IMG/VR virus record: IMGVR_UViG_3300009610_000072
Span: 1-28,867 of that record
From: a virus
Direction: 5' to 3' (one strand)
DNA length: 28,867 nt
Below, one piece after another: positions 9,219-28,262 of this stretch. The notes below the pieces were generated by a model. The model worked only from the letters and a program-made list of their open reading frames with translations. It had not been told where the DNA came from and did not search any database. Position 1 is the stretch's first letter. Each line of letters begins with the position of its first letter. The position numbers and the translations under genes are program-made.

Positions 9219-9230
9219 TTCCTACTCCCC

Positions 9231-9257
9231 GGCACTTCGTGCCCGGCACTTCGTGCC
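9231..9257. repeat. Tandem mini-palindromes (two copies)
   Basis: Two adjacent perfect inverted repeats of GGCAC-TTC-GTGCC (9231-9243 and 9245-9257) lie between the glycosyltransferase gene and the terminator. They share the 3-base TTC/GAA loop of the dispersed palindrome family seen elsewhere in the window. Confidence 0.85.
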
Positions 9258-9259
9258 GC

Positions 9260-9290
9260 AAAAAGGGAAGGGGGCAACGCGCCCCCTTCC
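9260..9290 (-). terminator. Rho-independent terminator after the capsid operon
   Basis: On the minus strand a perfect 10-bp stem, GGAAGGGGGC pairing with GCCCCCTTCC around loop GCGTT, is followed at once by CTTTTT. It lies 10 bases after the stop of the head-fibre-like gene, so it should end the abundant scaffold/capsid transcript before the glycosyltransferase genes. Confidence 0.85.
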
Positions 9291-9299
9291 AGTCGGGCG

Positions 9300-9563
9300 T
9301 TAAGCCGAGCCCTTGATGATTCCGAGCGTTACCAAGTCCGCCCGAAGCTGATTCACAAGCGTCACGATCGCGTTCGCTTGCGTCGAAGTCGTGTAGCCGA
9401 ACTGCGACGACAAGTTCGTTGCCGCCGTCGTCGCTACCGCCGCCTGAGACGCACTCGCAGGCTGCGCCCCCGGCGTCGCGCCGAAGAAGCCCACACGCGA
9501 ACTCGCCGTTCCTCTCCAGGTAACCGCACCCTCAAGGATCGGATCATCCAATCGCTGTCTCAT
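9300..9563 (-). CDS. Small head-fibre / decoration-like protein
   Basis: An 87-aa protein with an excellent ribosome site (GAGGAGG, 7 bases upstream of ATG 9563) that lies just after the capsid stop codon. A motif VGFFGATPGAQPA at residues 24-36 is followed by an Ala/Thr-rich linker and a C-terminal helix (QANAIVTLVNQLRADLVTLGIIKGSA). This FFGATP...LxxLGII pattern is common at the ends of phage head-fibre and decoration proteins and probably forms a trimer. It is cotranscribed with the capsid gene and followed by the terminator, fitting high-level production. Confidence 0.8.
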   Translation of the reverse strand: MRQRLDDPILEGAVTWRGTASSRVGFFGATPGAQPASASQAAVATTAATNLSSQFGYTTSTQANAIVTLVNQLRADLVTLGIIKGSA

Positions 9564-9575
9564 TGTCCATCCTCC

Positions 9576-10820
9576 TCACGTCGCCGAGATGTTGCCGAGG
9601 TACGCGCACGAGAGGCCGCCCCCGTCAACCATCATCGAGCATTCGGTCTGGATGAACCCACGACGGACATCTTCGTCCTTCGTCTGCACATCATCCAGCG
9701 TTTTCGTATCCCGCCCCTTTAGAGCGACATACTTCACCGCGCTGAAGTCGAGCACAAACAGACTCTTTTTCCAGAGTGGATGCCTCGAGAGCAACGGATG
9801 GCTCTTCAACAAAAGCCTTCCCATCGGGAGGATGAACTCTTGGAAGTTGATCCCAAACAGCTTCACCGGATTCCCCAACTCGATCCGGATTCCAGTCGTC
9901 GCCTGGATCACCTTTCCAAGCTCCGTTCTGGCGAAGTTCCCGCAGAACCCAATCCGCGTATCCCCTCCACCCAGATCAAAGTCGAACGCCGGCGCCACCG
10001 CGTCAGCGAACAGCGCCGCCGTCACCGCCGTCCCGAACACCGTCGTGTTCGACGCCGGAATGAAGCCCCGCATGCTGCCCATGAAACGCTTCGGCTTTCC
10101 AGTCACCGGATCGGTCGTCTCCGCCCGGATTCCGAAAAGCATCGACATTTCAATGTTCCGTGCATGGTCGAAGCTCTTCCGCTTCTTGTCATTCGACCAA
10201 GCACTTCCCGTTCTGGCGGTCGTCGCATCTGCCGTCCCGCTGATCTCATACGTGTTCTTGAAGATCTGCGTGTAGTTGAAGAACTTGACCGGATTCCTCG
10301 AAACGGCACGCGGCGCCGCCGTTCCTTCCGCATACGCACTTCCGATCAACGTAAACACCGCCGTCGCCGTCTGCGAAACGGCAGTAGTGCCGGCGGCGCC
10401 ACGCGTCACGGTGAAACTGGTATCCGACAGGACTCCAGTCACCTCCAGGAACTCCGGCGTATACACACTCGAGTCAGTCGCCGGCTCCACCTGAAGGATG
10501 TCTCCAGCCTTCAAATGCGTCGCTGTTCCATAGAGGTTTCCCATCTGGGTCGCCGTCGGATCAATCGACGTGGCGGCAACCGTAATCGTCGTATCAGTCG
10601 ACGTCAGCGCCACGCTATTCGTCAACCTCACATGGTTCTGCGACTCAGCCCACCACGAGAACTCAGGGTCAGTCACAGTCTTCTTTCCCGCCTTGCTCGT
10701 TAGAGCAAAGATTGGAGAATCGCCATTCGGCGAAAAGAAGAGGATCGACTCGCGAAAATCTTTGGGGCGCTCGTCTGTCCCCCAATCGCCAGTCCCTCTT
10801 AGTCCGGCTACGCCACTCAT
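9576..10820 (-). CDS. Major capsid protein (SU10-type)
   Basis: A 414-aa protein following a scaffold-like gene and preceded by ribosome site AAGGGA. The N-terminal region (MSGVAGLRGTGDWGT...RESILFFSPNGDSPIFALT) and the central FNYTQIFKNTYEISGTADAT segment (about 190-210) are the marks I associate with SU10-type HK97-fold capsid proteins. An inserted beta domain lies at about residues 75-160. The C-terminus (FIQTECSMMVDGGGLSCAYLGNISAT) is also typical. The length agrees with the family. Codon reading is clean, with no frameshift. Confidence 0.9.
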   Translation of the reverse strand: MSGVAGLRGTGDWGTDERPKDFRESILFFSPNGDSPIFALTSKAGKKTVTDPEFSWWAESQNHVRLTNSVALTSTDTTITVAATSIDPTATQMGNLYGTATHLKAGDILQVEPATDSSVYTPEFLEVTGVLSDTSFTVTRGAAGTTAVSQTATAVFTLIGSAYAEGTAAPRAVSRNPVKFFNYTQIFKNTYEISGTADATTARTGSAWSNDKKRKSFDHARNIEMSMLFGIRAETTDPVTGKPKRFMGSMRGFIPASNTTVFGTAVTAALFADAVAPAFDFDLGGGDTRIGFCGNFARTELGKVIQATTGIRIELGNPVKLFGINFQEFILPMGRLLLKSHPLLSRHPLWKKSLFVLDFSAVKYVALKGRDTKTLDDVQTKDEDVRRGFIQTECSMMVDGGGLSCAYLGNISAT

Positions 10821-10836
10821 TTTGGCGTCCCTTTCC

Positions 10837-10851
10837 GGCGGCTTCGCCGCC
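10837..10851. repeat. Mini-palindrome before the capsid gene
   Basis: A perfect palindrome GGCGGC-TTC-GCCGCC lies in the gap between scaffold stop and capsid start. It contains the GCTTCGC core, and in the capsid mRNA it would form a hairpin just 5' of the ribosome site. Confidence 0.85.
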
Positions 10852-10861
10852 TCACATCAGG

Positions 10862-11842
10862 CTAGTCCTCAAAGTCCTTGCCGAGGTTCATCCAAGGATT
10901 CTCCTCCACCTGGACTTGTGCAATCGGCCGCGCTCCCGATCGGGCTGGAGCAAACGGTGGCGGCTTCGCCGCCTGGGGCGCAGGAGCGCCCGAGCCATTC
11001 GATGACGGAGGCGCAGCAAGCTGGAGCCCCAGATGGGCATGAACCGCCGCACCCACGAACTTGATCGCGTCGGCGCGACTCGCTCCAGGATTCGACGACC
11101 GATAGAGTCTTGCAAAATCGTTAACCAGAGCTGTATGCTCACCCGCATTTAGCTGTGGCCAAGACTTGAAGAACTCGTTCAGCGCCTCCGAACCCTTTTC
11201 CCTCTGCTGCAATATGCGGCTCACCCCACTCTCCACCAACTGCGGAACCAGCGTGGAGATCAGTTTAAGCGCATTCTTCGTCCCTTCCAGATGCACCCTC
11301 GCCATCAGCTTCGGAATCGTTCCTACCGCATCAGTGTCCAGTGCATCCTTCTCCGCTTGTGTCAGGGCATACGTGTTCCCAGCCATCCATTCCTGGAGTT
11401 GTTTGGCCGTTTCTGGAACTTCGAGCCCTTGTATAATCGCCTCCGGCGTCGCCGGGATCGGAGTCGTTCCCTGCTGCACCGGCGGTTGCGCCGCCTGCGT
11501 CTGCTGCGGCTGCACCGGAGACGGAGCGGGCGGCTCCGTGACGGGCGCTTTCGCAGGTTCCGCTTGCGGCACAACCGGCTTCTCCGGCGCCGGACCCGTA
11601 TCCGGCTTCGGAGTCTCTTCAACCTCGAACTCTTCCAGTCCGAGCGCATCGAACTCATTTCCGGGCGCCGAAGGAGCGCCTTCCACCGTTTCCCCACTCA
11701 CTTGCGACGGCGTGACAGGCTGCGGTGAAGAGGACGGCGCCGTTTCCACTGCGGCAGTGGAAGGGGCGGGAGTAGCGGCCCCGACGGCACCGCCCTCTTC
11801 TGGTCCAAACGCAATCCTCTTATCTTGTCCGAAAAGCATCAC
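10862..11842 (-). CDS. Scaffolding-like protein
   Basis: A 326-aa protein directly upstream of the capsid gene. Residues 1-140 are low-complexity and rich in Pro, Ala, Glu and Thr. Residues about 150-265 are helical and charged (for example KQLQEWMAGNTYALTQAEKDAL), and the tail is Pro/Ala-rich, ending NPWMNLGKDFED. Composition, acidity, helix content and position between portal and capsid genes are the usual signs of a phage scaffold. The start ATGATG at 11842 overlaps the upstream TGA. A copy of the dispersed palindrome lies in frame inside the gene at 10959-10973. Confidence 0.8.
   Translation of the reverse strand: MMLFGQDKRIAFGPEEGGAVGAATPAPSTAAVETAPSSSPQPVTPSQVSGETVEGAPSAPGNEFDALGLEEFEVEETPKPDTGPAPEKPVVPQAEPAKAPVTEPPAPSPVQPQQTQAAQPPVQQGTTPIPATPEAIIQGLEVPETAKQLQEWMAGNTYALTQAEKDALDTDAVGTIPKLMARVHLEGTKNALKLISTLVPQLVESGVSRILQQREKGSEALNEFFKSWPQLNAGEHTALVNDFARLYRSSNPGASRADAIKFVGAAVHAHLGLQLAAPPSSNGSGAPAPQAAKPPPFAPARSGARPIAQVQVEENPWMNLGKDFED
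10959..10973. repeat. Mini-palindrome inside the scaffold gene
   Basis: The same 15 bases as at 10837-10851 (GGCGGC-TTC-GCCGCC) lie in frame within the scaffold gene, encoding part of an Ala/Lys/Pro stretch near the C-terminus. Confidence 0.85.
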
Positions 11843-12144
11843 TCAACGTCCTCGTCGCTCTTACCTCGAATTTCCTTTGCCACCCGAATAATACCCTCAG
11901 GCAACCCCAGACACAGGCGAAACGCGGCAATGGCCCCCTTGGCAGCATTTTGGAACACCGCCTCATCCATACTTCTACACGGCACCTCCGCCTCTGTGCA
12001 CTTCGTGCGCAAATGATGCTCGATTAGCTGGACATATATCTTCCACCCCGGACCAGCGATCAGACTTTCCAGCTCTCTCGCCATTCGCAGATGGTCGCGG
12101 TCATCCTTCGACAATGGCAACTTCGGCATCCTAGTATCCAGCAT
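11839..12144 (-). CDS. Conserved small protein between portal and scaffold
   Basis: A 101-aa, mostly helical protein (residues 12-95), with Arg/Lys/Asp-rich stretches such as LSKDDRDHLRMARELESL and KCTEAEVPC. It starts inside the end of the portal gene (14-base overlap), and its TGA overlaps the scaffold ATG. It resembles the small phage proteins commonly encoded between portal and capsid genes, but I can assign no function. An assembly accessory role is suggested only by position. Confidence 0.82.
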   Translation of the reverse strand: MLDTRMPKLPLSKDDRDHLRMARELESLIAGPGWKIYVQLIEHHLRTKCTEAEVPCRSMDEAVFQNAAKGAIAAFRLCLGLPEGIIRVAKEIRGKSDEDVE

Positions 12145-14074: not shown

Positions 14075-14250
14075 TTGAGCGCCACCCTTTCATCCACTGG
14101 GAGCGACTTGCAAGCGCGCTCCAGATACGGTTTCAAATCCCTTGCCTCATAGACCATTATACCGATAAACACAACGAACGCCGCCGCCACAACACCAACG
14201 ATCAACACACATTCCGTCTTATCCTTCCGCCTTACCTCTCGCAAACTCAT
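14062..14250 (-). CDS. Small single-pass membrane protein
   Basis: A 62-aa protein. A basic N-terminus (MSLREVRRKDKTE) precedes one strong hydrophobic helix (about residues 14-33, CVLIVGVVAAAFVVFIGIMV) and a short soluble tail with two cysteines. Its ATG overlaps the terminase stop (ATGA), and its own TGA overlaps a possible portal start. It is embedded between two packaging genes, so a membrane role during assembly or lysis is possible. No family is recognised. Confidence 0.8.
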   Translation of the reverse strand: MSLREVRRKDKTECVLIVGVVAAAFVVFIGIMVYEARDLKPYLERACKSLPVDERVALKCPV

Positions 14251-15767
14251 GGACAGCTCCTCACCAGTTTTAGCTTCGGAACGTTTTTATTATCAATGAA
14301 GCCGCGCTCATCCACAACATCCATCCACGGCTTCGACAACGCCGACACAGCAATCGCACTCGAATCCAGCAAATCCTCATGTTCCAGATTCGGGTACTCG
14401 GAAAATTGCGTAACGAACTCTCCATGCTCCGGCCTCACACACAACCTTCCACTAGACGCAGGCCCTGCAAGAATCGAATTGATTCGCACAGGCTTGGACC
14501 TTATATCGTCGAACGTGTTGATCGTAAACCATTGCTGACGCCGCGTCATTTCCTGTTCCAATATCCACTTGAGCACCTTCTGGTACGCTACACCCTCAAC
14601 GGAAACACTATTGATCCGCCAGCGCGTCGCCAGTTCAAAAAACTTAGCAAGGGTCCATCCCGGCTGATGCCCCCTCATCAACGAGTACTCCAAAAGGTAG
14701 AACTTGTCCCCATACCTCCGCCACACACTCTGCGCTTCGAAATCCGTCGAGATGACATCGCGGCGCTTTTCCTTCGCAGCACTCGGAGGCGGAACTGGAT
14801 CAATAGCGAGAACTGTGATGCCAGAACCCGGAGCCGAGTTGTAATACTGCAACCATTCGCTGCGAAACATGCAGCTTTCCTTCGAGACAATTCTAACTTC
14901 CTTTTCTCGAACAAATACAGAGAGGCGATTTGCAGCCACCGCCGCGCGCTTTTCTTCTCGAAGCGTTTCAGTCGGGTGCCGTTCAGGCCAAGCGGAGACC
15001 TGAGCGTCAACAGGAAGGTCTTCGGTCTCCTTCGTCCAGCACGAAAACCGAACAGTAGTCCACTCTCGATCCTTTTCTGCTCTCGATGAAACATCGTCAG
15101 CATTTTGAGGCGTATTGAGCATGGCAAGTTTTGCATTCGGCATCTCCGACGCCGGCGCCAGACTGTTCCGCAGCGCCCCCATCACCAAGTCCGCGATCTT
15201 TTCCCTCTGCTCCTTGCTCGCCGCATTCTCATCGGTGAGAATATCATCAAGAACGATGAGATCAGGACGATAGTCATCGAAATTGATGCCACGAATATTA
15301 CCAGTAATGCCAGCACCAAGAACCCAAATAGGCTTGACATCAGTTCCATGGAATATCTCCAGCTCCGTATCAGTCCACTTTTTACCCGGCTTGAGGTCGA
15401 AGACTTGTGCGAGCAATTCCGGAACGGCACTCCCAGTCGCGCCGCGCTTAGGCTCGATACGACTCCGCAACCACTGAATGCTCCGGGTTGCATGTCCTTC
15501 GCTAGCTCCGACGTAGAGAATTGTTCTGCTGAGTCCATATGCAATCCGCTTCGCGGTAAAGATTCGCAATTTCGTCGTCTTTGCAAAATCTCTCGGAAGG
15601 AGTAGATTGAGCAACCTGGAGCGTGGATCGTTGAGTTTCGCATCTACCTCTCCATGCATTGGCGGTGAGGGCTGTCTCGCCGCATGAGGGAAGAACGTTT
15701 TCGCGAATAGCCCATCATCAACCGCACATAGGTTGACCAGTTCCTTTACGTTTATCGTGGTGGTCAT
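14247..15767 (-). CDS. terL: Terminase large subunit
   Basis: A 506-aa protein with both motor and nuclease signatures. The Walker A-like loop is near residues 57-65 (LLPRDFAKTT), an atypical form with Ala-Lys-Thr-Thr in place of Gly-Lys-Thr/Ser. Walker B is DLIVLDDIL (about 173). The coupling motif appears as KLAMLNTPQ (about 215). The RNase H-fold nuclease part has LAIDPVPP (about 320), SVEGVAYQ (about 392) and EHEDLLDSSAIA (about 472), supplying acidic residues. It packages concatemeric DNA into the prohead. Its ATG at 15767 overlaps the stop of the fibre-like gene. Confidence 0.92.
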   Translation of the reverse strand: MTTTINVKELVNLCAVDDGLFAKTFFPHAARQPSPPMHGEVDAKLNDPRSRLLNLLLPRDFAKTTKLRIFTAKRIAYGLSRTILYVGASEGHATRSIQWLRSRIEPKRGATGSAVPELLAQVFDLKPGKKWTDTELEIFHGTDVKPIWVLGAGITGNIRGINFDDYRPDLIVLDDILTDENAASKEQREKIADLVMGALRNSLAPASEMPNAKLAMLNTPQNADDVSSRAEKDREWTTVRFSCWTKETEDLPVDAQVSAWPERHPTETLREEKRAAVAANRLSVFVREKEVRIVSKESCMFRSEWLQYYNSAPGSGITVLAIDPVPPPSAAKEKRRDVISTDFEAQSVWRRYGDKFYLLEYSLMRGHQPGWTLAKFFELATRWRINSVSVEGVAYQKVLKWILEQEMTRRQQWFTINTFDDIRSKPVRINSILAGPASSGRLCVRPEHGEFVTQFSEYPNLEHEDLLDSSAIAVSALSKPWMDVVDERGFIDNKNVPKLKLVRSCP

Positions 15768-18604
15768 GCCGCCGCCTTCAATCTTCCAGTTGTCACAATC
15801 ATATACGGATTCATCTTCGCATCACCGCCCGTCGCCGGCGTTGCATCCTCTCCAACCGCCGTCACCACACTCGCTCCGCTCGCATTCCCCACCGCAAACT
15901 GCACAGCCGACGCCCGCCCCTCCACAACACTCGCTCCACTCGCACTTCCTGTCGTCGCCTCCACATCAGCGGCGCCGACACCCGTAACGACGCTCGCCCC
16001 ACTCGCATTTCCAGCAGCAAACTGCACCGCCGTCACATGTCCAGTAACGACACTAGCTCCGGTCGTGCTCCCTGCTGCCGCCTGCACAGGACCGCCTACA
16101 GCGGTCACTACCGACGCTCCAGCGGCCGTTCCGGCCGCAAACTGTACCGGAGCGCCTACGGCGCTGATCACACTCGCGCCAGTAGTGCTCCCTGCTGCCG
16201 CTTGCGTCGCCGCTCCGACCGCCGTCGGCGTACTCGTCCCAATCGCGAACCCAGCGGCTGCAACCGTCGCAGCGCCAACACCCGTGACAACACTCGCGCC
16301 GGTCGCGCTTCCAGTCGTCGCATCATCCTGGGCCGAGATGCCTGTAACGACGCTTGCACCTGAGGCCGTTCCAACCGCAAACTGAACTGGAGCACTTACG
16401 GCAGTCACAACGGACGCGCCACTCGTACTTCCAGTTGTATCCGTCGCGGCAACTTCCGCAACTCCTGTCACCACGCTGGCGCCAGACGCGTTTCCAACCG
16501 CGAACTGCGTTGCAGCACCCCGCCCAGTAGCGACACTCGCGCCCGCAGCGCTTCCAGCCGCCGCCACTTGCGACGCCGCCGTCGCCGTCACCACACTCGC
16601 GCCAGAAGCACTTCCTGCCGCCGCAGTCGTCGCGGCGCCTCGCCCAGTGACGACGCTCGCGCCAGTCGTACTTCCCACAGCAGACTGGATCGCGGCACCG
16701 CGCCCAGTTAGCGTGCTGAGTCCAGTCGCACTTCCAACCGCTGCTGCAACCGACGTTCCACTCGCAGTTGCAACAGAAGCGCCTGTCGCGCTTCCCGCTG
16801 CGGCGGCAGTCGACGCACCAACGCCGGTAACGACGCTCGCTCCGCTCGTAGACCCAGGCGCATCACTTCCAACAATCGTAATCCGTGGAATTTGCGTATA
16901 CGAATCCCACAGTGTGTCCGGCTGTTTGCTGGACGAAATCATCCGGAAGTCGTAAGTATTTCCTCCAACAAATGCGCCGGCGCCCGTCGCTTCGATCGCA
17001 AAAACGATCTCTGTAAAGTTCCCTGCCTCAACCGCCAGGACGTCCGTTATCCCAGACTGATCCTCCTGAAGCCCGGCGAAGAAACTTCCAGTCCCCGCCC
17101 CGAGCCTATTCGTCGTCGCACCATTATCCGCCAACGCACTTCCAGTGAATGGTGCCCAATCGCTGGAGGCGAGCGCCACAAACGCTCCACTATTCTTCGA
17201 AACCTGAAGCCCGTGCGTCTGCTCTACGAACGCCCACGTATTATTCTCCTGGAGGCGGAATCGAACCTGGACCTGTGGACTGTTCGTCGTGTTCCGCGAA
17301 ATATTCGTGTTCTGCGCCGCAATCGCAACGGCGCCACTTTCCGTCCCATCCTCATAAAAACGGAAGGCGTCCTGCGAAAAGTTCGACTTCCGAATGGTCA
17401 ACCGCGGAATGACTGTAAGTGTCGTCAGATCGACAAACCCAGCCCCAACATTCACCACGACCTTGAGATCGACAGTCGTGTCTTCGACCGCCGTGGTCGG
17501 AATGATTTGGAAGCCCCAAACTCCCTCCGTGAAATTATTCGCTGTTAGCTGAAAGTTTGATGGACCTCCAAATGATCCCTGCTGGACACCTGCAACAAAT
17601 GATCCCGTTCCACCCGTTAGACGTTCCGTTGTGGCGCCACCCGCCAATCCGGCGGTGGCCTGCTCGATCATCGTTCCCGGATTATCAGTATACGTTCCAC
17701 CAGCTTCGCTGACCTGAAGCTTCCAGTCGTCTGTCGCAGTTCCCGATACTCCTCCCGACTCCTGTATCCGGATGCGAAGATGCCCCGTGTCGAAAACGTT
17801 TCCATCAACCTCAATATTCGTACCTTGCGGCGCCGACGCCGTGGATCCCGCCTCTGTCCCATTTTCATAGAAGCGGAAATCCGCTAGCGTTTGATCGAAC
17901 GACTTCTCCACAAACGCAACAACGGCCGACGCATGATCGACGGCGCCCGCCCCTCCAGTCGGAGCAGACGCCAAATTCGTCGACGTCGCAATCTTAAACT
18001 CACCTCTGACGCCCATCTCCGTCGCGGAGGTTCCGGCGCCGGAAATCGCTTGCGTGAAGATCGTCCATGTCGACGTGGGCGTCAATACCGTCGTTACGTT
18101 TGCCTCACTCGCAATACCCCTGACGCGAAGGCTCTCGACCGCCGCCGTTGTCGCCACCAACGACCCAACGTTCGACGCTGCATCGACGGCGGCAGTGTTG
18201 CTCGAAACAACGACCGGCGTTTTCGTGGCGCCCATCGAGAAGCGCCGCGCAGTCAATGCGGAGGCGTCACAGGTCGTCGCCGACGTGAAGGTGGCGCGGA
18301 TCGTGCCACCACTCGCAACCGCGTTAGTCAGCTTTGAGTAAAAGATTGCGATCTCGGCGCCCGCCTGCGCTGAGCCTTGTCCGTTGGCGAACTCTTTCGC
18401 CCTCGTCCAAGTATTCCCACCCGAGTCAATGATGTCACTGACTTGAGTAGCGTCTCCGTCCGTTGTCTGATTGTTGTCGACGGCGGCGAGGACGACGACC
18501 AATTCGCCCGACACGCACGACGCAGTGGTCAAGATAGTCGTCGTTGCCTGGTTATTACCAGTGTTCGACGCCGTTCCGACTTGACCAAGATCAGCAAAGG
18601 CCAT
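15764..18604 (-). CDS. Large repeat-containing fibre or decoration protein (946 aa)
   Basis: Residues 1-230 form a beta-rich domain (opening MAFADLGQVG). Two copies of a roughly 175-aa domain follow (about 240-415 and 415-580). Each starts FRFYE-[ND]-GTE-[AS]-G, has a GLQVSK-like or LQVSEAGG strand, and ends IPR-[LI]-TI. From about residue 585 to 925 there are 17 units of about 20 aa with consensus SGASVVTGVGA plus an Ala-rich tail. The last residues (MNPYMIVTTGRL) form a short cap. This looks like a beta shaft or fibre exposed on the virion. Its position directly before the terminase gene is unusual. Function as fibre, spike or capsid decoration is inferred. Confidence 0.85.
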   Translation of the reverse strand: MAFADLGQVGTASNTGNNQATTTILTTASCVSGELVVVLAAVDNNQTTDGDATQVSDIIDSGGNTWTRAKEFANGQGSAQAGAEIAIFYSKLTNAVASGGTIRATFTSATTCDASALTARRFSMGATKTPVVVSSNTAAVDAASNVGSLVATTAAVESLRVRGIASEANVTTVLTPTSTWTIFTQAISGAGTSATEMGVRGEFKIATSTNLASAPTGGAGAVDHASAVVAFVEKSFDQTLADFRFYENGTEAGSTASAPQGTNIEVDGNVFDTGHLRIRIQESGGVSGTATDDWKLQVSEAGGTYTDNPGTMIEQATAGLAGGATTERLTGGTGSFVAGVQQGSFGGPSNFQLTANNFTEGVWGFQIIPTTAVEDTTVDLKVVVNVGAGFVDLTTLTVIPRLTIRKSNFSQDAFRFYEDGTESGAVAIAAQNTNISRNTTNSPQVQVRFRLQENNTWAFVEQTHGLQVSKNSGAFVALASSDWAPFTGSALADNGATTNRLGAGTGSFFAGLQEDQSGITDVLAVEAGNFTEIVFAIEATGAGAFVGGNTYDFRMISSSKQPDTLWDSYTQIPRITIVGSDAPGSTSGASVVTGVGASTAAAAGSATGASVATASGTSVAAAVGSATGLSTLTGRGAAIQSAVGSTTGASVVTGRGAATTAAAGSASGASVVTATAASQVAAAGSAAGASVATGRGAATQFAVGNASGASVVTGVAEVAATDTTGSTSGASVVTAVSAPVQFAVGTASGASVVTGISAQDDATTGSATGASVVTGVGAATVAAAGFAIGTSTPTAVGAATQAAAGSTTGASVISAVGAPVQFAAGTAAGASVVTAVGGPVQAAAGSTTGASVVTGHVTAVQFAAGNASGASVVTGVGAADVEATTGSASGASVVEGRASAVQFAVGNASGASVVTAVGEDATPATGGDAKMNPYMIVTTGRLKAAA
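15832..16851 (-). repeat. Coding tandem repeats, 17 units of about 60 bases
   Basis: Imperfect 60-63 base repeats lie inside the 946-aa gene, encoding SGASVVTG-type 20-residue units. Units differ by point changes, and a few are longer by one codon; all keep the reading frame. Such arrays can expand or contract by recombination. Confidence 0.85.
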
Positions 18605-18613
18605 CAGAAGCCT

Positions 18614-18637
18614 CGGCGCGGAAGCGCCGCGCTTCGC
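18614..18637. repeat. Intergenic palindrome
   Basis: A perfect inverted repeat CGGCGC-GGAA-GCGCCG (18614-18629) is followed by the core GCTTCGC (18631-18637). It fills the gap between the 138-aa structural gene and the start of the 946-aa gene. Confidence 0.8.
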
Positions 18638-18639
18638 AC

Positions 18640-19056: not shown

Positions 19057-19069
19057 GGTTCATTTCCCC

Positions 19070-19084
19070 CGCCGCTACGCGGCG
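19070..19084. repeat. Palindrome over a stop codon
   Basis: A perfect inverted repeat CGCCGC-TAC-GCGGCG. On the minus strand its loop and flank supply the TAG stop of the coiled-coil gene, so the hairpin includes the stop codon. Confidence 0.8.
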
Positions 19085-19593: not shown

Positions 19594-19600
19594 GACATCC

Positions 19601-19900: not shown

Positions 19901-19901
19901 T

Positions 19902-20426: not shown

Positions 20427-20429
20427 CCC

Positions 20430-21023
20430 TCAATCCTCCGAGGCGCAAGAGCGCCTCTCGCTCTCAAGCCCTGCCGCTGGCTCAGACGCCGGCGGAGCTG
20501 CATTCTGACCGACATCCAAGAGCTTGTTCTCATGGGCGATAACTTTCGCCCGCGCCGCCGCTAGATCCTCAGCAGAAATCGGCGCCACAATCTGCGCATT
20601 CGTATTGACAACAACAGTCGGGCTAGACGCCGCCTTTGTACCGTACCCCAGACGCTCGAGCGCAGAATCCATAACATCGGTGAGTTCCTCGAACGGGAGG
20701 GAGGTGCGCTTCTTGTCCAAAGTCTCCTGGACAATGTCGAGAGCGGAGAGCGCCACGCCGGAAAGTTTGTGGTTGATAGCCGCGACGAGGCGGCTGGATT
20801 GTTCGCCGCGGCGCTGTTCGTAGCGCATTCGGAAGAGGTCGTTGTTGACGATGATCGAGATCGTTGTGAAATGCTTGCCGAGGCGCGCGGCGATCTGCTT
20901 TTGCGTAATGCCGGGCTCCGCGAGCATGAGGTCGATGATATGATCGTGCCAATACATGTAACGGCCGGAGGAGATCGGTCGCGGCGGGCGGCCCAGGTCG
21001 TTTATCGGAAACATGGGTTGCAT
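20430..21023 (-). CDS. HTH DNA-binding protein, likely small terminase subunit
   Basis: A 197-aa protein if started at ATG 21023; ATG 21014 is possible, and the frame is open to 21167, but that part reads as non-coding. Residues about 25-65 form a helix-turn-helix (IIDLMLAEPGITQKQIAARLGKHFTTISIIVNNDLFR). A central helical region (80-145) may serve oligomerisation, and the C-terminal part is Ala-rich. An HTH followed by an oligomerising helix is the layout of phage small terminases, which recognise the packaging site. It lies 4.7 kb upstream of the large subunit, an unusual separation. A transcription regulator is the alternative. Confidence 0.72.
   Translation of the reverse strand: MQPMFPINDLGRPPRPISSGRYMYWHDHIIDLMLAEPGITQKQIAARLGKHFTTISIIVNNDLFRMRYEQRRGEQSSRLVAAINHKLSGVALSALDIVQETLDKKRTSLPFEELTDVMDSALERLGYGTKAASSPTVVVNTNAQIVAPISAEDLAAARAKVIAHENKLLDVGQNAAPPASEPAAGLESERRSCASED
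20440..20457. repeat. Palindrome inside the small-terminase-like gene
   Basis: An inverted repeat GAGGCGC-AAGA-GCGCCTC in the last codons of the gene, 14 bases before the start of the nuclease-like gene. On the mRNA it would fold next to that gene's ribosome site. Confidence 0.7.
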
Positions 21024-21303
21024 TTGGCACCAGCGAAGCGGCTGTTCATGATGCGGATAGTCTATCTCAGTGGGGGGTGGAGTGCGCGCTCTTTGCGCGC
21101 AGGGGGACTTTCGTTTCTCGAAGTTCTTGGCGCGGCGGGAGTGGCTTTGCGATATCGACCAAACCACCCCGCGCGGGGGGATGGGAGGCAGGCGCTACGC
21201 GCCGACTCGCTACGCGCCGACTAATAGCATGGGGCGCCCCAACGCAGGGCGCCCCAGCCGCTTCACAGCCGCTTCACGGCTAGCCGCGAAGCGGCTCTTG
21301 GTG
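21024..21303. other. Non-coding GC-rich gap with stacked palindromes
   Basis: 280 bases without a supportable gene. It holds palindromes TGCGCGC-TCTTT-GCGCGCA (21083-21101), GGCGC-TAC-GCGCC (21191-21203), self-complementary GGGGCGCCCC (21231-21240) with GGGCGCCCC (21247-21255), a tandem 11-mer AGCCGCTTCAC (21256-21277) and AGCCGC-GAA-GCGGCT (21282-21296). There is no T-tract, so this is not a classic terminator. It may act as an attenuator, a processing site or a packaging-site region. Confidence 0.65.
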
Positions 21304-21885
21304 CTAGAGTTGGTCGACGCTCGCGCCGGTCCCGCGGGCTTTGTTATACGCCTCACGAATCGCCGCGACTTCATACGCAAAGGCGAGGTAGGACTTCGAT
21401 CCTTTCGGGAACTCGCCTTTGGCATCCGGCTGGACTTGATTACCCTTCGCGTCCACCCGCCAGTCCTTGCGGTCGCTGCGATCCTTGCCCGTGGCTTGCA
21501 AGATACACGCCAGCATGGTGTCAGCATCGTAGCGAGTGACACCAGCGCCAACGCCGCGCTCTGCCCACACAGGCGGAGACGCCTTGGCCGACTCCAAAAA
21601 CAAGTCAATGGCGGCAGCCGCGTCCTTCAGCGATCCGGGCGCGTCCTTGTCGTTCAGCACGGTATTCGCCACGTTGCCTAGCTTGGTGTGGAACCCCAGG
21701 ATGGCGCACATAGTCGGCAACTTGCCGGCCGGTCCCATCTGCTCGTCCCAAGCCTTGATAGGCTTGTAGTCTTCGCCATCAGCTTCAACCAGCGTGAATC
21801 GGGCGCCGGTCGCGCCTTCTGCGGTATCAACCACCGTGCCACCCGTTCCCAGATAGTCACGGATCGACCTTTTTTCCTTAGCCAT
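21304..21885 (-). CDS. First leftward gene, unknown 193-aa protein
   Basis: ATG 21885 has GGAGA nine bases upstream; the frame is open to 21975 but that part lies in the repeat region. The protein opens MAKEKRSIRDYLGTGGTVVD, followed by a mixed alpha/beta domain with GARFTLVEADGEDYKPI (about 27-45), an Ala/Asp-rich helix (LKDAAAAIDLFLESAK) and a basic patch (GKDRSDRKDWRVDAKGNQ) near 140. There are no enzyme motifs. As the first gene beside the divergent control region it could be a DNA-binding or regulatory protein. I do not recognise its family. Confidence 0.78.
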   Translation of the reverse strand: MAKEKRSIRDYLGTGGTVVDTAEGATGARFTLVEADGEDYKPIKAWDEQMGPAGKLPTMCAILGFHTKLGNVANTVLNDKDAPGSLKDAAAAIDLFLESAKASPPVWAERGVGAGVTRYDADTMLACILQATGKDRSDRKDWRVDAKGNQVQPDAKGEFPKGSKSYLAFAYEVAAIREAYNKARGTGASVDQL

Positions 21886-21900
21886 TTGCAGTCTCCATTG

Positions 21901-21935
21901 TGGCGTGATTGCCACGCCGCGAATATGGCACGCCA
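21901..21935. promoter_or_regulatory. Operator-like inverted repeats
   Basis: TGGCGTG at 21901-21907 pairs with CACGCC at 21913-21918 (5-base loop) and with CACGCCA at 21929-21935. Three copies of one core lie within 35 bases, immediately upstream of the first leftward gene's ribosome site. This is the usual arrangement of a repressor-binding site. Confidence 0.5.
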
Positions 21936-21995
21936 CTGCGGCGGGCGCAAGAACTTTTTCGCTGTGCACTATCACGTTTTATTACAGCCCCCACC

Positions 21996-22046
21996 GTTGC
22001 GGAAATGCCACTCGTTGCGGAAATGCCACCCTGGCGCAAGTGCCAG
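21996..22046. repeat. 18-base direct repeats (iteron-like)
   Basis: GTTGCGGAAATGCCAC occurs exactly twice (21996-22011 and 22014-22029), with a diverged third unit TGGCGCAAGTGCCAG at 22032-22046. The period is 18 bases, close to two helical turns, as expected for a protein-binding array. Confidence 0.75.
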
Positions 22047-22140
22047 TTCGCCAAGCCACCGCTGCACCCTTCGCCTAAGTGTAAAGACCCCATTTCCGAT
22101 CATTCGATGCATCCATGCAACACTCAGGGGGGGGTTGCCA

Positions 22141-22166
22141 TATAGCGATGCCCTATAGCGATAGGG
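22141..22166. promoter_or_regulatory. TATAGCGAT repeat with 16-base palindrome
   Basis: TATAGCGAT occurs at 22141-22149 and 22154-22162. The second copy is the centre of the perfect palindrome CCCTAT-AGCG-ATAGGG (22151-22166). It is a candidate operator for the rightward genes. Confidence 0.55.
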
Positions 22167-22231
22167 AAGAGGAAGCACTAACTCTATAGCTCATAGAATT
22201 TTTTTTTGAGACGTCTACAAGAGTCCTTCCC

Positions 22232-22254
22232 CGCCGCTTCGCGGCGACTTCGCC
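22232..22254. repeat. Mini-palindromes in the leader of the rightward block
   Basis: CGCCGC-TTC-GCGGCG (22232-22246) overlaps a second inverted repeat GGCGA-CT-TCGCC (22243-22254). It contains the GCTTCGC core shared with other copies. Confidence 0.8.
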
Positions 22255-22365
22255 TCGCCATCCCAACGGGTCCATTGCACCTATCCACCCCATGCCCACC
22301 CCCAAATGTTGCATGATTGCAAGCAATGATACCCCACCCCACCCAACAAGGACAAGGAACTCCAC

Positions 22366-22698
22366 ATGTCCATCCTTCCCCAACTCTCACCCCTCTTTCC
22401 TCTTCCTCTTCGCACCTGCCCCAACTGCAACGTCCAATTCGAACCAAACAATCACAAACACACCTTTTGCTCTCTTCGCTGCTACAACAAATCCTGGCGC
22501 CGCCTCAACAACAACCGTAAGAACGTCAAACTTCATCTTGGTATCAGCCGCTTCGCGGCTTCTGAAGCCCTCGACGAGCCGCTTCGCGGCGAAGAGCAAG
22601 TCATTGCCGCCACCGCTCCCGCCGTCGCCATGACCGACTCCGATTGGGAAACCCTCATCCTCGGCGCCGCCGCACCACAGAAGGACGAACCCAAATGA
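22366..22698 (+). CDS. Small treble-clef zinc-finger protein
   Basis: A 110-aa protein; ribosome site AAGGA 7 bases before ATG 22366. Cysteines C18, C21, C35 and C39 form CPNC-x13-CSLRC, a short zinc-binding treble clef, followed by a basic stretch (YNKSWRRLNNNRKN). The rest is a linker containing two in-frame copies of the GCTTCGC palindrome (22546-22560 and 22578-22590) and an acidic/hydrophobic end (MTDSDWETLILGA). It is probably a nucleic-acid or protein-binding adaptor. It is the first gene of the rightward block, hence likely early. Confidence 0.8.
   Translation: MSILPQLSPLFPLPLRTCPNCNVQFEPNNHKHTFCSLRCYNKSWRRLNNNRKNVKLHLGISRFAASEALDEPLRGEEQVIAATAPAVAMTDSDWETLILGAAAPQKDEPK
22546..22590. 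repeat. Two in-gene mini-palindromes
   Basis: AGCCGC-TTC-GCGGCT (22546-22560) and GCCGC-TTC-GCGGC (22578-22590) lie in the same reading frame in the linker of the zinc-finger gene, coding for RFAAS and PLRGE. Confidence 0.85.
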
Positions 22699-22926
22699 CC
22701 ACCGAGACGCTACTCTGATCAAAGAGCCCCCTTAACCGCGTCCTTAAAGTCCCCCTTAAAAATCCACACAACCTCCAACCAAATCTTGACGTCGGAGACC
22801 CCTACCCAAATACCACAAAATGCTGCACCGCACCATCACGAAACCGTGAATTGACAAAAGGACCCTTTTGTGATCCACTAGTCGGCGCACCCCGCGCCCG
22901 TTCGCGTCCTCCACTCGGAGCCACAT
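22699..22926. promoter_or_regulatory. Intergenic region with 18-base palindrome
   Basis: 228 bases with no gene. CCCCCTTAA occurs at 22727-22735 and 22751-22759 with a related CCTTAAA between them. A perfect inverted repeat ACAAAAGG-AC-CCTTTTGT spans 22854-22871 and overlaps a TTGACA (22851-22856) that could be a -35 element. No TATAAT-like element stands at the right distance, so the promoter is uncertain; the palindrome itself is clear. Confidence 0.5.
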
Positions 22927-23190
22927 ATGAACCGCATAATCGAGTTCTCCAGCCCTAAACGCCGCCGCGTGCGCGGCACCAACATCAAGATCGGCACCAC
23001 CCTCTACGCCGTTCAAGACACCCACACCCGCCTCTACTTCATCTGGGCTTACACTGACCGCCCTACAGCCGAATGGATCGCCACCCGCGTCCACCCAGAC
23101 TCCCCCGCCGACATATCCGCCAACTGGCGGCACGACAAAGCTCAACTCACACCCACCGAAGCCACTTCGCAGACCGAGCCCACCCCATGA
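22927..23190 (+). CDS. Small basic hypothetical protein
   Basis: An 87-aa protein with GGAG six bases before ATG 22927. The N-terminus is basic (SPKRRRVRGTNIKIG). The middle is beta-rich with aromatics (LYAVQDTHTRLYFIWAYTDR), and the C-terminus is hydrophilic. The stop overlaps the next start (ATGA), so it is coupled to the CxxC protein. No family is recognised. Nucleic-acid binding is possible from the basic start. Confidence 0.75.
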   Translation: MNRIIEFSSPKRRRVRGTNIKIGTTLYAVQDTHTRLYFIWAYTDRPTAEWIATRVHPDSPADISANWRHDKAQLTPTEATSQTEPTP

Positions 23191-23579
23191 CCACCATTCC
23201 ACTCGCCGAACCCGACTTCGACATGACGATCCCCCACATCGTCCTCCACACCCACACCCAACACTGTCTCGGATGCCGCTCCACCCACACCTGGTCCGCC
23301 GTCTTCGAGTGCATCACCAAAGGGCGCACCAAGCAGTACCTCCCTGCCCACTCTCTATCAGCCATTCCCTCGGATTACCGCCTCGTCCCCATCTCCCTCC
23401 CCATCGAATACATCGTCATCTGCCACGGCTGCTTCTCCACCGACGCGGCGTGCGCCATCCCCGACCACGAAGCCCACCGTCGCTGGCAACAGACCCTAAT
23501 GCGCAAGAACGCATCACCCGACAACGGGGGGGGCGTTTCGCGCCCACCCAAAGTCACCCCAACCCTCGACATGCTCTGA
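23187..23579 (+). CDS. Two-CxxC zinc-ribbon-like protein
   Basis: A 130-aa protein starting at ATG 23187 (ATGA overlap with the previous stop). Two CxxC knuckles, C27-C30 (HCLGC) and C79-C82 (ICHGC), suggest one zinc ribbon with beta strands between. A Gly- and Pro-rich tail follows, containing the palindrome GGGCG-TTTCG-CGCCC (23531-23545) in frame, and the protein ends PTLDML. Conserved proteins with this CxxC layout are common in phages, but their role is unknown to me. The same C-terminal ending appears two genes downstream. Confidence 0.78.
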   Translation: MTTIPLAEPDFDMTIPHIVLHTHTQHCLGCRSTHTWSAVFECITKGRTKQYLPAHSLSAIPSDYRLVPISLPIEYIVICHGCFSTDAACAIPDHEAHRRWQQTLMRKNASPDNGGGVSRPPKVTPTLDML

Positions 23580-23580
23580 G

Positions 23581-23595
23581 GGGCGCGAAGCGCCC
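23581..23595. repeat. Intergenic mini-palindrome
   Basis: A perfect palindrome GGGCGC-GAA-GCGCCC, one base after the stop of the CxxC gene, followed by a half copy GAAGCGCCC (23597-23605). It lies in the leader of the vWA-like gene. Confidence 0.85.
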
Positions 23596-23627
23596 TGAAG
23601 CGCCCAAGGGCAGAAAGTAGTGTCCCC

Positions 23628-24314
23628 ATGACTCAAGATCTCGTTGGAACCACCTCCCAACACGACTACATTTTACTAGACGGCTCCGGCTCCATGCTCC
23701 CCAAATGGTGGCCTTCGCTGGCCGCCATCGACGTTTACGTCGACTCCCTGAAAATCGCCCACGTCAACACCCAAATAATCCTCTCCGTCTTCTCATCCGA
23801 CGACGACCGCCGCTTCCTCCTCAACGAAGAGCGCTGTCTCCCCATCCACGACTGGACGCCGCTCTGCACCGTCGGCGTCGGCGCCCCCTTCGGCGGTACA
23901 CCCCTCTACGACGCCATCAACGCCATGGGCAGGCGCCTCCGCGACATCGACCCTCCCCGCGCCGCTGCCACCATCGTCACCGACGGCGAAGAGTTCGCCT
24001 CCAAAACCTCCCTCCAGGACGCCAAACGCATCCTGGACTGGATGAGAGCGAAAGGTTGGCAGGTCACCTTCATCGGCTGCGACTTCGACAACCGCAAAAC
24101 CGCCTCCCTCCTCGGCGGCAATCCCGCCTCCGCCATCGGCGTCCAAAAAGCCCTGCTCTCCGACGCCGCAAAAAACCTCGCCGCAAAGCGCGCCCGCTAC
24201 GCTCTCTACGGCGAACAGATGCACTTCACCGAAGGCGAGCAAACCCAGTTCGGCGGCCTTTTGACAGCCTCCCCGCCTTCGTCAAAAGAGCATGTGGAAG
24301 AGTCCAATGGCTGA
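23628..24314 (+). CDS. von Willebrand factor A-domain protein with intact MIDAS
   Basis: A 228-aa protein. The metal-ion-dependent adhesion site is complete: D18-x-S20-x-S22 (LLDGSGSM), T91 (FGGTPLYDA) and D119 (IVTDGEE). Helices and strands between them follow the vWA order. The C-terminal 50 residues are helical and end in a hydrophilic tail. No signal peptide or membrane helix is seen, so it probably acts in the cytoplasm. vWA domains bind partner proteins through a divalent metal. Phage copies are known but poorly understood. Its stop overlaps the start of the next gene, which may encode its partner. Confidence 0.85.
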   Translation: MTQDLVGTTSQHDYILLDGSGSMLPKWWPSLAAIDVYVDSLKIAHVNTQIILSVFSSDDDRRFLLNEERCLPIHDWTPLCTVGVGAPFGGTPLYDAINAMGRRLRDIDPPRAAATIVTDGEEFASKTSLQDAKRILDWMRAKGWQVTFIGCDFDNRKTASLLGGNPASAIGVQKALLSDAAKNLAAKRARYALYGEQMHFTEGEQTQFGGLLTASPPSSKEHVEESNG

Positions 24315-24663
24315 AGACCTTCCCAATCTGAGTAAGCTCATCAAATTGCTCAAGATGACCACCTCGTCCAACGACGCGGAGGCCCTGGCTTTCCTTCGGA
24401 AAGCCAATGCAGAGTTGGTAAAATTCGGCGGAGACTGGGAGTCCCTCCTCCGTGGAAAGGTCACCGTCATCGGTGACCCCTTCGACGGCTGCTTCGCAGC
24501 CCCTGTGCCTCCGCCACCCACCTCCAACTATCGCTACACTCCACCCCCGGCTGCTTCGCAGCCACAAGCGCAATATCACTACCGACCGAGCCCCTCGCGA
24601 ATGCAATCCCAACCCCGGACCAAGGCAAAAGTCCGCAACATCCCAACCGTCGACATGCTCTAG
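24307..24663 (+). CDS. Small helical protein with Pro-rich tail ending PTVDML
   Basis: A 118-aa protein starting at ATG 24307, with GGAAGAG just upstream, overlapping the vWA gene end. Residues 1-45 form a helical domain (MAEDLPNLSKLIKLLKM...EALAFLRKANAELVKFG) followed by DWESLLRGKV, a fold start seen in many phage hypothetical proteins. Residues about 60-110 are Pro/Gln/Tyr-rich and hold two identical in-frame palindromes (24487-24501 and 24549-24563). The C-terminus PTVDML matches that of the CxxC protein. A DNA-metabolism partner role is possible but unproven. Confidence 0.8.
   Translation: MAEDLPNLSKLIKLLKMTTSSNDAEALAFLRKANAELVKFGGDWESLLRGKVTVIGDPFDGCFAAPVPPPPTSNYRYTPPPAASQPQAQYHYRPSPSRMQSQPRTKAKVRNIPTVDML
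24487..24563. repeat. Two identical in-gene mini-palindromes
   Basis: GGCTGC-TTC-GCAGCC occurs identically at 24487-24501 and 24549-24563 in the Pro-rich tail. The copies are read in different frames relative to the palindrome (GCFAA and AASQ). Confidence 0.85.
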
Positions 24664-24700
24664 CAGGGCAAATCGGAGCACGCAGGGCAAATCGGAGCAC
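24663..24700. repeat. Exact 19-base tandem duplication carrying the ribosome site
   Basis: GCAGGGCAAATCGGAGCAC is repeated back to back (24663-24681 and 24682-24700). Each copy contains GGAG; the second copy places GGAG 8 bases before the next ATG, the first is a spare. Confidence 0.9.
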
Positions 24701-24705
24701 TCCAA

Positions 24706-25029
24706 ATGCGCTATGAAACCCCTTACATCCGCCGCGTCTCTCCCATCGTCTACAATGCCTGCTACGGCGGCTTCTCCCTCTCCAAAAATGCAATCGAACA
24801 CTACAACCTCATAGGAGCCGCGAAGCGGCTCCACCCCCACGACAACGTCGACCGCGAAGACCCCTACCTAATCCGAACCATCATGGCGCTCGGACACACC
24901 GCCGCTGGCGGCTGCGCCGACCTCCAAATCCACCTCCTTTCCCCTGACACCGTCTATCGCATCGACTCCTACGACGGTGCCGAAACCATCAGGCTCTTCC
25001 ACGACCACGATTGGAGAATCTCCAAATGA
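24706..25029 (+). CDS. Conserved phage protein (NACYGGFSLS family)
   Basis: A 107-aa protein. The motif YNACYGGFSLSKNAIEHY (residues 16-33), then a PYLIRTIMALGHTAAGGCADLQI pattern and a C-terminal YRIDSYDGAET...HDWRI, are marks of a small protein family that I recall from many phages, function unknown. In frame between residues 36 and 43 lies a 19-base palindrome (24814-24832) encoding part of GAAKRLH, possibly an insertion in a loop. The stop overlaps the next start (ATGA). Confidence 0.85.
   Translation: MRYETPYIRRVSPIVYNACYGGFSLSKNAIEHYNLIGAAKRLHPHDNVDREDPYLIRTIMALGHTAAGGCADLQIHLLSPDTVYRIDSYDGAETIRLFHDHDWRISK
24814..24832. repeat. In-gene mini-palindrome (longest copy)
   Basis: A perfect palindrome GGAGCCGC-GAA-GCGGCTCC inside the NACYGGFSLS-family gene. 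At 19 bases it is among the longest members of the dispersed family. Confidence 0.88.
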
Positions 25030-25148
25030 CCCTCTTCGCCCTCCAACTCCTCGACAACCAATGGTTCGCCTTTTGGCTGTCCGGCTGCGACGTCATAGTC
25101 GAAGCCATCACTCTCTCCGACGCCTTCATGCTTGAGGTCCTACTATGA
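25026..25148 (+). CDS. Very small coupled gene (40 aa)
   Basis: ATG 25026 overlaps the previous stop, and TGA 25146-25148 overlaps the next ATG. The product starts MTLFALQLLDNQWFAFWL and is hydrophobic and aromatic in its first half, acidic at the end. Exact ATGA packing on both sides and codon use like its neighbours support it. It may be a microprotein or short membrane-associated peptide. No family is recognised. Confidence 0.6.
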   Translation: MTLFALQLLDNQWFAFWLSGCDVIVEAITLSDAFMLEVLL

Positions 25149-25318
25149 TCCACCTCTACGTCTGGGCCGACGAACTCTACCCCTATTGGCGCCTCGAACG
25201 ACGCAACGCCGCGGGCGCCAGACCTATCGACCTTTCCGAGGCGGATTATGCCGCCTACGAAAAGGTCCGCGCCGACTTCTTCAACTGGCAAACCAAGCTG
25301 AAGGATCTCCGCAAATGA
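25145..25318 (+). CDS. Small hypothetical protein (57 aa)
   Basis: ATG 25145 overlaps the previous stop (ATGA), and its TGA at 25316-25318 overlaps a further ATG. The product starts MIHLYVWADELYPYW and is charged and aromatic with a C-terminal helix (EADYAAYEKVRADFFNWQTKL). It has no membrane helix or motif. Coupling to both neighbours is the main evidence for translation. Confidence 0.65.
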   Translation: MIHLYVWADELYPYWRLERRNAAGARPIDLSEADYAAYEKVRADFFNWQTKLKDLRK

Positions 25319-25428
25319 CGGCGCAGGGTCGAGTGGCAAAGCCGACGACAGAGGAAAGCTGCAATTCGGCCGAGTGCTTCATCGGCGACCCCAGCGCGAG
25401 CGCTGGCAAGAGGAAGGGACTCCAGTAA
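25315..25428 (+). CDS. Possible very small gene (37 aa)
   Basis: ATG 25315 overlaps the previous stop in the same ATGA style, and the frame ends in TAA at 25428. The product is hydrophilic, with two cysteines. A perfect palindrome CCAGCG-CGAG-CGCTGG (25391-25406) lies inside it. Coding evidence is thin: only the overlap and the small remaining gap before the next gene. It could instead be untranslated leader. Confidence 0.4.
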   Translation: MTAQGRVAKPTTEESCNSAECFIGDPSASAGKRKGLQ

Positions 25429-25441
25429 AGGTGAAAAGCCA

Positions 25442-25645
25442 ATGATCGACATCACCTCCATCAAGCCGCGCCTCCTCCGCGTCAAGCTCCGTTGGGAAGC
25501 CGACGACGCCGACGCCGACACCGCCACTGTCATCGGCATCGACTCCCTCGGCTACGTCCGCGTCCTTTGGGACTCCGAACCTCATCAAATCTATCGCATC
25601 GACGCCTCCAAACTCGCCGAAGTCAAACCAGCGCAAACCGACTGA
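25442..25645 (+). CDS. Small beta-rich hypothetical protein (67 aa)
   Basis: ATG 25442 has AGGTG about 8-9 bases upstream. The product (MIDITSIKPRLLRVKLRWE...) has alternating strands, an Asp/Ala-rich loop (ADDADADTATVIG) and a second strand pair (YVRVLWDSEPHQIYRIDASKL). It resembles a small SH3-like barrel by strand pattern only. No family is recognised. It stands alone between two gene chains. Confidence 0.72.
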   Translation: MIDITSIKPRLLRVKLRWEADDADADTATVIGIDSLGYVRVLWDSEPHQIYRIDASKLAEVKPAQTD

Positions 25646-25689
25646 CGCAAAAACGCCGAATAACATAAGTGCAGACAAGGAGTTGCAAC

Positions 25690-26241
25690 ATGATGTCAAT
25701 CCCCGACATGTTTGGCCGGCGTAAGGACGTCGGAAACCCCAACCGGAAGGAACCCCTCATGGCCGAAAACATCCCCGCCCCCCGCTTCCTAGCTGCTTCG
25801 CAGCCAGGGCGCGAAGCGCCCGCCCCCTCCCGCTATCGCAGCGAAGCCGCCGCCCTCGCGGCTCAACACGTCGAAGACCTCGAACACGAAGTCCGCGACT
25901 CCAAAGCTCGCTACCAGATCGAAGTAGACGCCCTCAAAACCCAAGTCTACGAACTGAAGGGCGAACTCGCCACGGTGAAAACCGCCAACACCATGCTCAA
26001 CACCGAATGCGAGGCCCTGCGCACTGCCGGCGAGGCCAACAGCGAGCGCCTCCGCGAACACCGCGCCAAGCTCGACGTGGCAATCAAGATTATCCTCGAC
26101 CTCGCACGCGAAGAACAGGCCGCCACGCGGCCTTCCGCCGAGAGGGCTTCCGCTGAAAGGGCTTCCGCCGAAGGCGAGAGCGCCGTCGGCGAATCCCTCT
26201 CCCTCTCCACCGCTCAAGCCCGGAGCAGCGTCCATGACTGA
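25690..26241 (+). CDS. Coiled-coil protein with repetitive C-terminus
   Basis: A 183-aa protein. I chose ATG 25690 because AAGGAG stands 7 bases before it; the frame is open from 25669. Residues 1-50 are linker-like and contain two in-frame palindromes (25792-25804 and 25807-25821). Residues about 55-150 are a continuous heptad-like helix (HVEDLEHEVRDSKARYQIEV...). Near residue 157-170 there are tandem RASAE units, then a Ser-rich tail. It may organise other early proteins as a dimer. It overlaps the next gene's start. Confidence 0.78.
   Translation: MMSIPDMFGRRKDVGNPNRKEPLMAENIPAPRFLAASQPGREAPAPSRYRSEAAALAAQHVEDLEHEVRDSKARYQIEVDALKTQVYELKGELATVKTANTMLNTECEALRTAGEANSERLREHRAKLDVAIKIILDLAREEQAATRPSAERASAERASAEGESAVGESLSLSTAQARSSVHD
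25792..25821. repeat. Two adjacent in-gene mini-palindromes
   Basis: GCTGC-TTC-GCAGC (25792-25804) and GGGCGC-GAA-GCGCCC (25807-25821) lie two bases apart in the N-terminal linker of the coiled-coil gene. The second equals the copy at 23581-23595. Confidence 0.88.
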
Positions 26242-27373: not shown

Positions 27374-27391
27374 AACACAGGAGAAACGACG

Positions 27392-27959: not shown

Positions 27960-27976
27960 AAAGCCATGAGGAAACC

Positions 27977-28225: not shown

Positions 28226-28262
28226 AGTGGCCCATTAAGCCGCAACGCAAGGTGCCCTTCCA

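Follow-up and report, generated by a model that had tools for sequence, protein, structure and literature searches.

Short palindromes with DNA mini-hairpin loops in a tailed-phage genome record and their probable origin

The window and its palindromes

The IMG/VR virus record IMGVR_UViG_3300009610_000072, analysed here over its whole length of 28,867 bases (the window), represents a tailed phage. Its terminase, head-tail and major head genes lie on the minus strand, and small plus-strand genes fill the right arm; the latter (nt 22000–28867) are C-rich on the coding strand (C 2524, G 1546). No cultured phages with similar DNA were found. Scattered between and inside the genes are short perfect palindromes with a 3-base loop, many of them with GAA or TTC loops closed by a C-G pair (cGAAg, or cGNAg in general). 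Their excess in the window is real and specific, and they are defined by structure, not as copies of a single mobile sequence. The set is probably a mutational signature, with a modest chance that it represents the mild extreme of some DNA-structure phenomenon under selection.

Every perfect palindrome with a stem of at least 5 and a 3-base loop was listed across the whole window, and the counts were compared with 200 dinucleotide-preserving shuffles in 500-base blocks and 300 shuffles of synonymous codons inside each gene. Controls of both kinds had been proposed in the initial annotation, and the excess held against each. Under the dinucleotide shuffles, 56 palindromes compare with an expected 30.0 ± 5.5, and the 25 with stems of at least 6 (7.7 expected) were matched in 0 of 200 shuffles. 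TTC and GAA loops together account for 16 palindromes at stem ≥5 (1.05 expected) and 13 at stem ≥6 (0.26–0.30 expected), and TAC loops for three at stem ≥5 (0.22 expected). Inside genes there are eight GAA/TTC palindromes with stems of at least 6 against 0.57 expected, a number reached in none of the 300 synonymous shuffles. Most of this coding signal comes from the right arm (6 versus 0.28, 0/300), the left arm alone being weak (2 versus 0.32, 12/300). The synonymous shuffles also reveal a mild excess of 5- and 7-base loops within genes. The 7-mer GCGAAGC is itself hardly enriched (22 copies versus 17 for the reversed control), and the signal is therefore the palindrome around it. Taking GAA, TTC and TAC loops together at stem ≥5, 11 of 19 palindromes fall in predicted genes and eight between genes.

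The listing recovered all 12 TTC- or GAA-loop palindromes of the initial annotation at the same positions, and added three perfect ones (9244–9258, 16122–16138 and 24386–24406) together with three copies of these stems that contain one mismatch (21267, 23531 and 25791). Its companion set with other loops fared less well: those at 19070 and 21191 do have a TAC loop, whereas the one at 9231 has TTC, the one placed at 18614 is really at 18621 with a CCG loop, and no perfect palindrome of stem ≥5 with a 3-base loop lies at 20440, 21083 or 25391. At least five different stems are represented.

Among the 25 triloop palindromes with stems of at least 6, the loop with its closing pair is cGAAg in 12 (0.08 expected) and cGTAg in two (0.02 expected), so that these carry a GNA loop closed by C-G with G-C pairs. 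This rule agrees with the published requirements for DNA mini-hairpins of extraordinary stability, a GNA loop on a G-C stem (PMC4686876); the favoured loops are thus those to be expected of folded DNA and not of RNA. The earlier proposal that d(GCGAAGC)-type mini-hairpins define the set is thereby borne out. Such hairpins are known as oligonucleotide structures (PMC4686876, and the Hirao and Yoshizawa papers cited there); the window shares their core sequence and loop rule but displays them as a genomic enrichment, which links a structure familiar from the laboratory with a pattern that can be measured in a genome. The preference for cGAAg is also seen among 95 related loci (46 versus 4). No UUCG or GNRA preference was seen among the four-base loops of the window palindromes. 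Mini-hairpins of the GNA class are exceptionally heat-stable and resistant to nucleases; the energy model assigns one value to all triloops tested, with no loop bonus, and so does not rank the loops.

Individual sites, local copies and relatives

The 15-mer GGCTGCTTCGCAGCC occurs twice in gene 24307–24663: at 24487–24501 (GGCTGC-TTC-GCAGCC), where it is read as GCFAA and begins at the end of the conserved domain of the homologues, and identically at 24549–24563, in another frame, read as PAASQP. One 15-mer in two frames of a single gene places the identity at the DNA level and rules out a protein-level origin of the repeats. Same-stem pairs no more than 200 bases apart are likewise in excess, both with one-mismatch copies counted (6 versus 1.35, p = 0.0007, permutation) and for perfect copies only (4 versus 1.2, p = 0.019). 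Full or partial tandem copies accompany four palindrome sites (9228–9257, 21193–21222, 21255–21277 and 23587–23605), and 5 of 19 palindromes overlap short-range direct repeats, compared with 0.49 by random placement (p = 0.0002) and with 1 of 37 other 3-base-loop palindromes as a control.

The leftmost site (9231–9258) is an intergenic tandem pair, GGCAC-TTC-GTGCC / CGGCAC-TTC-GTGCCG, with a 14-base unit. It directly follows a terminator-like hairpin with a T-run, which is common to the related contig L001, and precedes the start codon of minus-strand gene 8367–9218; in this position L001 has an unrelated palindrome, TGCGCCC-GCA-GGGCGCA. The sequence GGCGGC-TTC-GCCGCC is found between the scaffold-like and major capsid genes (10837–10851) and again within the scaffold-like gene (10862–11842, minus strand), in its C-terminal linker (10959–10973). 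GCGGCCG-TTC-CGGCCGC and AGCGCC-TAC-GGCGCT (16122–16165) lie in the repeat region of minus-strand gene 15764–18604; the former lacks the cGNAg closing pair and its membership is doubtful. The product of this gene has 946 aa and contains degenerate SGASVVTG repeats, with a DNA period of 60 bases at nt 16521–16665; it is strongly diverged among relatives. A gene junction at 19070–19084 carries CGCCGC-TAC-GCGGCG, which has the stem found at 22232 with a GTA-type loop.

Further right, GGCGC-TAC-GCGCC and a 15-base tandem partial copy (unit CGCTACGCGCCGACT) lie between genes at 21191–21222, close to a three-copy array of the AGCCGC family (21255–21296), which consists of a truncated copy, a one-mismatch copy with the opposite loop orientation (21267–21281) and the perfect AGCCGC-GAA-GCGGCT (21282–21296). 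CGCCGC-TTC-GCGGCG is intergenic (22232–22246). Plus-strand ORF 22366–22698 contains AGCCGC-TTC-GCGGCT and GCCGC-TTC-GCGGC, 32 bases apart and in two different frames, with a short direct repeat (22546–22590). The GGGCGC copies at 23531–23605 begin with a one-mismatch version in the C-terminal linker of gene 23187–23579 (23531–23545), followed directly after its stop codon by the perfect GGGCGC-GAA-GCGCCC (23581–23595) and then by a 10-base tandem partial copy. Gene 24307–24663 also contains, in its conserved part, TGGCTTTCC-TTC-GGAAAGCCA (24386–24406), absent in relatives; this palindrome forms no cGNAg hairpin and its membership is doubtful. Within nt 23628–24663, VWA-like and DUF2786-like genes (both weak matches) adjoin, and the two stand side by side in several relatives. 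The last sites are GGAGCCGC-GAA-GCGGCTCC (24814–24832), inside gene 24706–25029, and a GGCTGC-family copy with five perfect pairs adjoining GGGCGC-GAA-GCGCCC (25791–25821) in the N-terminal linker of gene 25690–26241, a protein for which no relatives were found in IMG/VR.

The closest relatives found, L001 and L002, share about 82% DNA identity with the window. The 15 bases of the palindrome at 10837, and no others, are missing from L001 between flanks of equal length, a clean indel with no target-site duplication. The comparison with relatives suggested in the initial annotation thus yielded, at one site, the clean presence or absence it had envisaged, and neither of the refuting outcomes named there was obtained. 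At 10959 the palindrome of L001 is GGGGGC-GAA-GCCCCC, which differs by an inverted spacer and a flipped stem pair, the single case seen of spacer inversion between perfect arms. Both arrays at 21191–21296 are missing from L001. In the relatives G003 and G013, the stop codon that precedes the 23581 site is separated from the next ATG by only some 6–15 bases, and the 24487 palindrome aligns with a 15-base gap in L110, a weak comparison at 55% amino acid identity. Concerted arm changes relative to L001 were seen at 10959, 5243 and 11744; overall, 6 of 10 double changes are complementary, from few aligned hairpins. The palindromes at 5243–5255 and 11744–11762 are coding and have other loops, and their pairing is kept in L001 through changes on both sides.

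Hairpin islands in other phages

The IMG/VR scan for one 15-mer also turned up contigs that are crowded with triloop hairpins. Four phages, related to one another and probably of soil origin (L168, L198, L153 and L177; records G028–G031), share a Pfam GP88 protein and each carry an island of about 5–7 kb, in which hairpins reach 29–35 per 2.5 kb as against mostly 0–3 elsewhere. They have stems of 6–11 and a 3-base loop (cGAAg, cAGAg or cGTAg), and occur about once per 100 bases in conserved genes (e.g., L168:6600–9900). In the gp88 gene they are conserved by compensatory, largely synonymous changes, such as ATTCGCT-TTC-AGCGAAT versus ATCCGCT-TTC-AGCGGAT. Across the aligned island, arm identity is 0.85–0.89 versus 0.76–0.79 outside, one-sided changes are depleted 2.4- to 4.8-fold (0.07–0.14 versus 0.31–0.35), and 73–88% of double changes are complementary. 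These alignments speak strongly for a structure that is maintained; they do not prove a function, since template switching can also preserve pairing. The window differs in that its hairpins lie in spacers and linkers and its conserved genes are not studded with them.

A second group, with a GC content of about 0.5, has a 1-kb hairpin island at the contig end (G032, L251:1–1000; G033, L249:1–1100). Three cultured phages, of which two encode a GP88 protein and the third has a short DNA match, showed no such island. The literature searched contained nothing relevant on a phage hairpin code, and the dense conserved arrays of the soil phages seem to be undescribed so far. They may merit more attention than the window; if the islands share its cause, they would reveal that phage genes maintain nucleic-acid structure at a level not recognised so far.

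Origin of the palindromes

On balance, we favour the view that the window set arose by replication template switching and slippage at cGNAg mini-hairpins, the products being tolerated in spacers and linkers. Replication would expose single-stranded phage DNA, in which the cGNAg core, mostly GCGAAGC, could fold into an exceptionally stable mini-hairpin. A polymerase switching template at such a hairpin would rewrite one arm as a copy of the other, so that a stem is formed or made perfect out of local sequence, and might also invert the 3-base spacer, while slippage would leave full or partial tandem copies nearby. The core would be favoured because it folds. Products would survive at the harmless positions offered by short intergenic spacers and by disordered linkers within proteins, and most of them would lie in the right arm, which changes fast. 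In the coding DNA of yeast, spacer inversion and arm homogenisation, including at 3-base ttc/gaa spacers, are reported for template switching between short inverted repeats (PMC8604942); such switching is able to create perfect stems in one event and to maintain hairpins (PMC8794818). The spacer inversion with concerted arm change at 10959 is the outcome reported in yeast and so supports template switching. These quasipalindrome mutations resemble the window in their perfect short arms, 3-base spacers, ttc/gaa inversion and occurrence in coding DNA, and perhaps in concerted arm changes (PMC8604942, PMC8794818); the window differs in being from a phage and in having loops that are nearly all cGNAg and local families with tandem remnants. 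We infer that polymerase template switching is the cause, that single strands are exposed and that the window set has no selected function; the window would then offer a phage in which mutation by template switching could be followed.

Several observations weigh against this interpretation. Few palindromes lie in alignable sequence, and complementary double changes relative to L001 amount to only six of ten. No near-identical genome pair was available for comparison, L001 being 82% identical, and hence no event is captured in its before and after states. The count of identical arms taken alone fits independent GC-rich stems (8 versus 5.55, p = 0.11, independent-columns test). L003 and L027 carry similar genes and no GAA/TTC palindromes, against 13 in the window, so the process must differ between lineages. 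Finally, the island hairpins are conserved and covary, so that a selected DNA-level role is possible in the window too.

Such a role, in which a phage or host protein would recognise cGNAg in cruciforms or single-stranded DNA whatever the stem, is a possible though rather unlikely alternative. The same loop rule operates in the islands, with conserved arms and depleted one-sided changes, and the window set is concentrated in one genome arm, as hairpins are in the islands; on the other hand, the window sites occupy spacers and linkers, relatives lack many of them or have something else in their place, conserved genes carry no dense sets of hairpins, and no candidate binding protein was identified. 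Extended to other phages, cGNAg palindromes might form a functional code at the DNA level, with free stems but selected pairing and loop, read by some protein or needed in the single-stranded state; that the window is a mild case of such a code and the islands of the four GP88-bearing soil phages its full form is a tentative idea with a similarly small chance. The protein-binding site suggested in the initial annotation is disfavoured in a sequence-specific form, as only the core and the pairing are common to the set and the stem sequence is not. N4-type virion RNA polymerases use hairpin promoters, which are small DNA hairpins with a 3-base loop and a short stem. Unlike these, the window hairpins have no shared downstream sequence, and the window encodes no giant virion polymerase (largest ORF 946 aa).

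A mobile family had also been suggested; taken as palindromes of defined sequence that resemble REP elements or Rickettsia palindromic elements and are carried by an enzyme of host or phage acting in trans, it appears improbable. The clean 15-base indel at 10837, the frame kept in linkers and the repeated identical copies would suit it, but the stems vary, copies range from 13 to 19 bases and target-site duplications are lacking. No Y1/RAYT transposase (PF01797) was detected in the window or in seven related or hyper-hairpin records, with five control genomes positive; the search covered phage records, and an enzyme of the host could conceivably still move the palindromes. The 15-mer AGCCGCGAAGCGGCT had seven matches in 299 Pseudomonadota genomes, at most two per genome, and among the loci listed in the IMG/VR scan with GGCTGCTTCGCAGCC no contig held a second copy. 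A host REP family was rejected on the basis that one 15-mer is not expanded in the 299 Pseudomonadota genomes or in eight genomes with capsid relatives, other phyla and stems lying outside this sample. REP/REPIN sequences with RAYT transposases (PMC3116915) are also short palindromes in several copies, but form one conserved, 16-mer-like extragenic unit, whereas the window has at least five stems and 11 of 19 copies inside genes. Rickettsia palindromic elements and the coding palindromes of Nematomorpha mitochondria (PMC6649704) similarly lie inside genes without destroying the protein, but are much longer (Nematomorpha arms at least 15 bp, palindromes up to 284 bp). Action at the RNA level, another earlier suggestion, is equally improbable, whether the hairpins are taken as intrinsic terminators, mRNA 3′-end protectors or 5′-leader hairpins: some copies do lie between genes near ribosome-binding sites, GAA-loop hairpins flank the capsid gene in some relatives and a terminator-like hairpin with a T-run stands beside 9231, yet 11 of 19 copies are inside genes in varying frames, GAA and TTC both occur in the sense strand, the loops are cGNAg triloops without UUCG or GNRA tetraloop preference, and the listed copies have no T-run after them, as intrinsic terminators would. 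A search of Rfam gave no match. Chance combined with GC-rich codon usage is very improbable; the stems are GC-rich and the 7-mer is hardly enriched, but with the counts reached in 0/200 dinucleotide and 0/300 synonymous shuffles it is refuted for the GAA/GTA set, although it may be the source of other loops in the left arm.

A capsid relative, L055 (record G014), contains 31 3-base-loop palindromes with stems of at least 6 in 21 kb, compared with 7.2 expected. Several of these have stems of 9–11, and one, TTAATTTCCCC-GAA-GGGGAAATTAA, abuts the capsid start codon.

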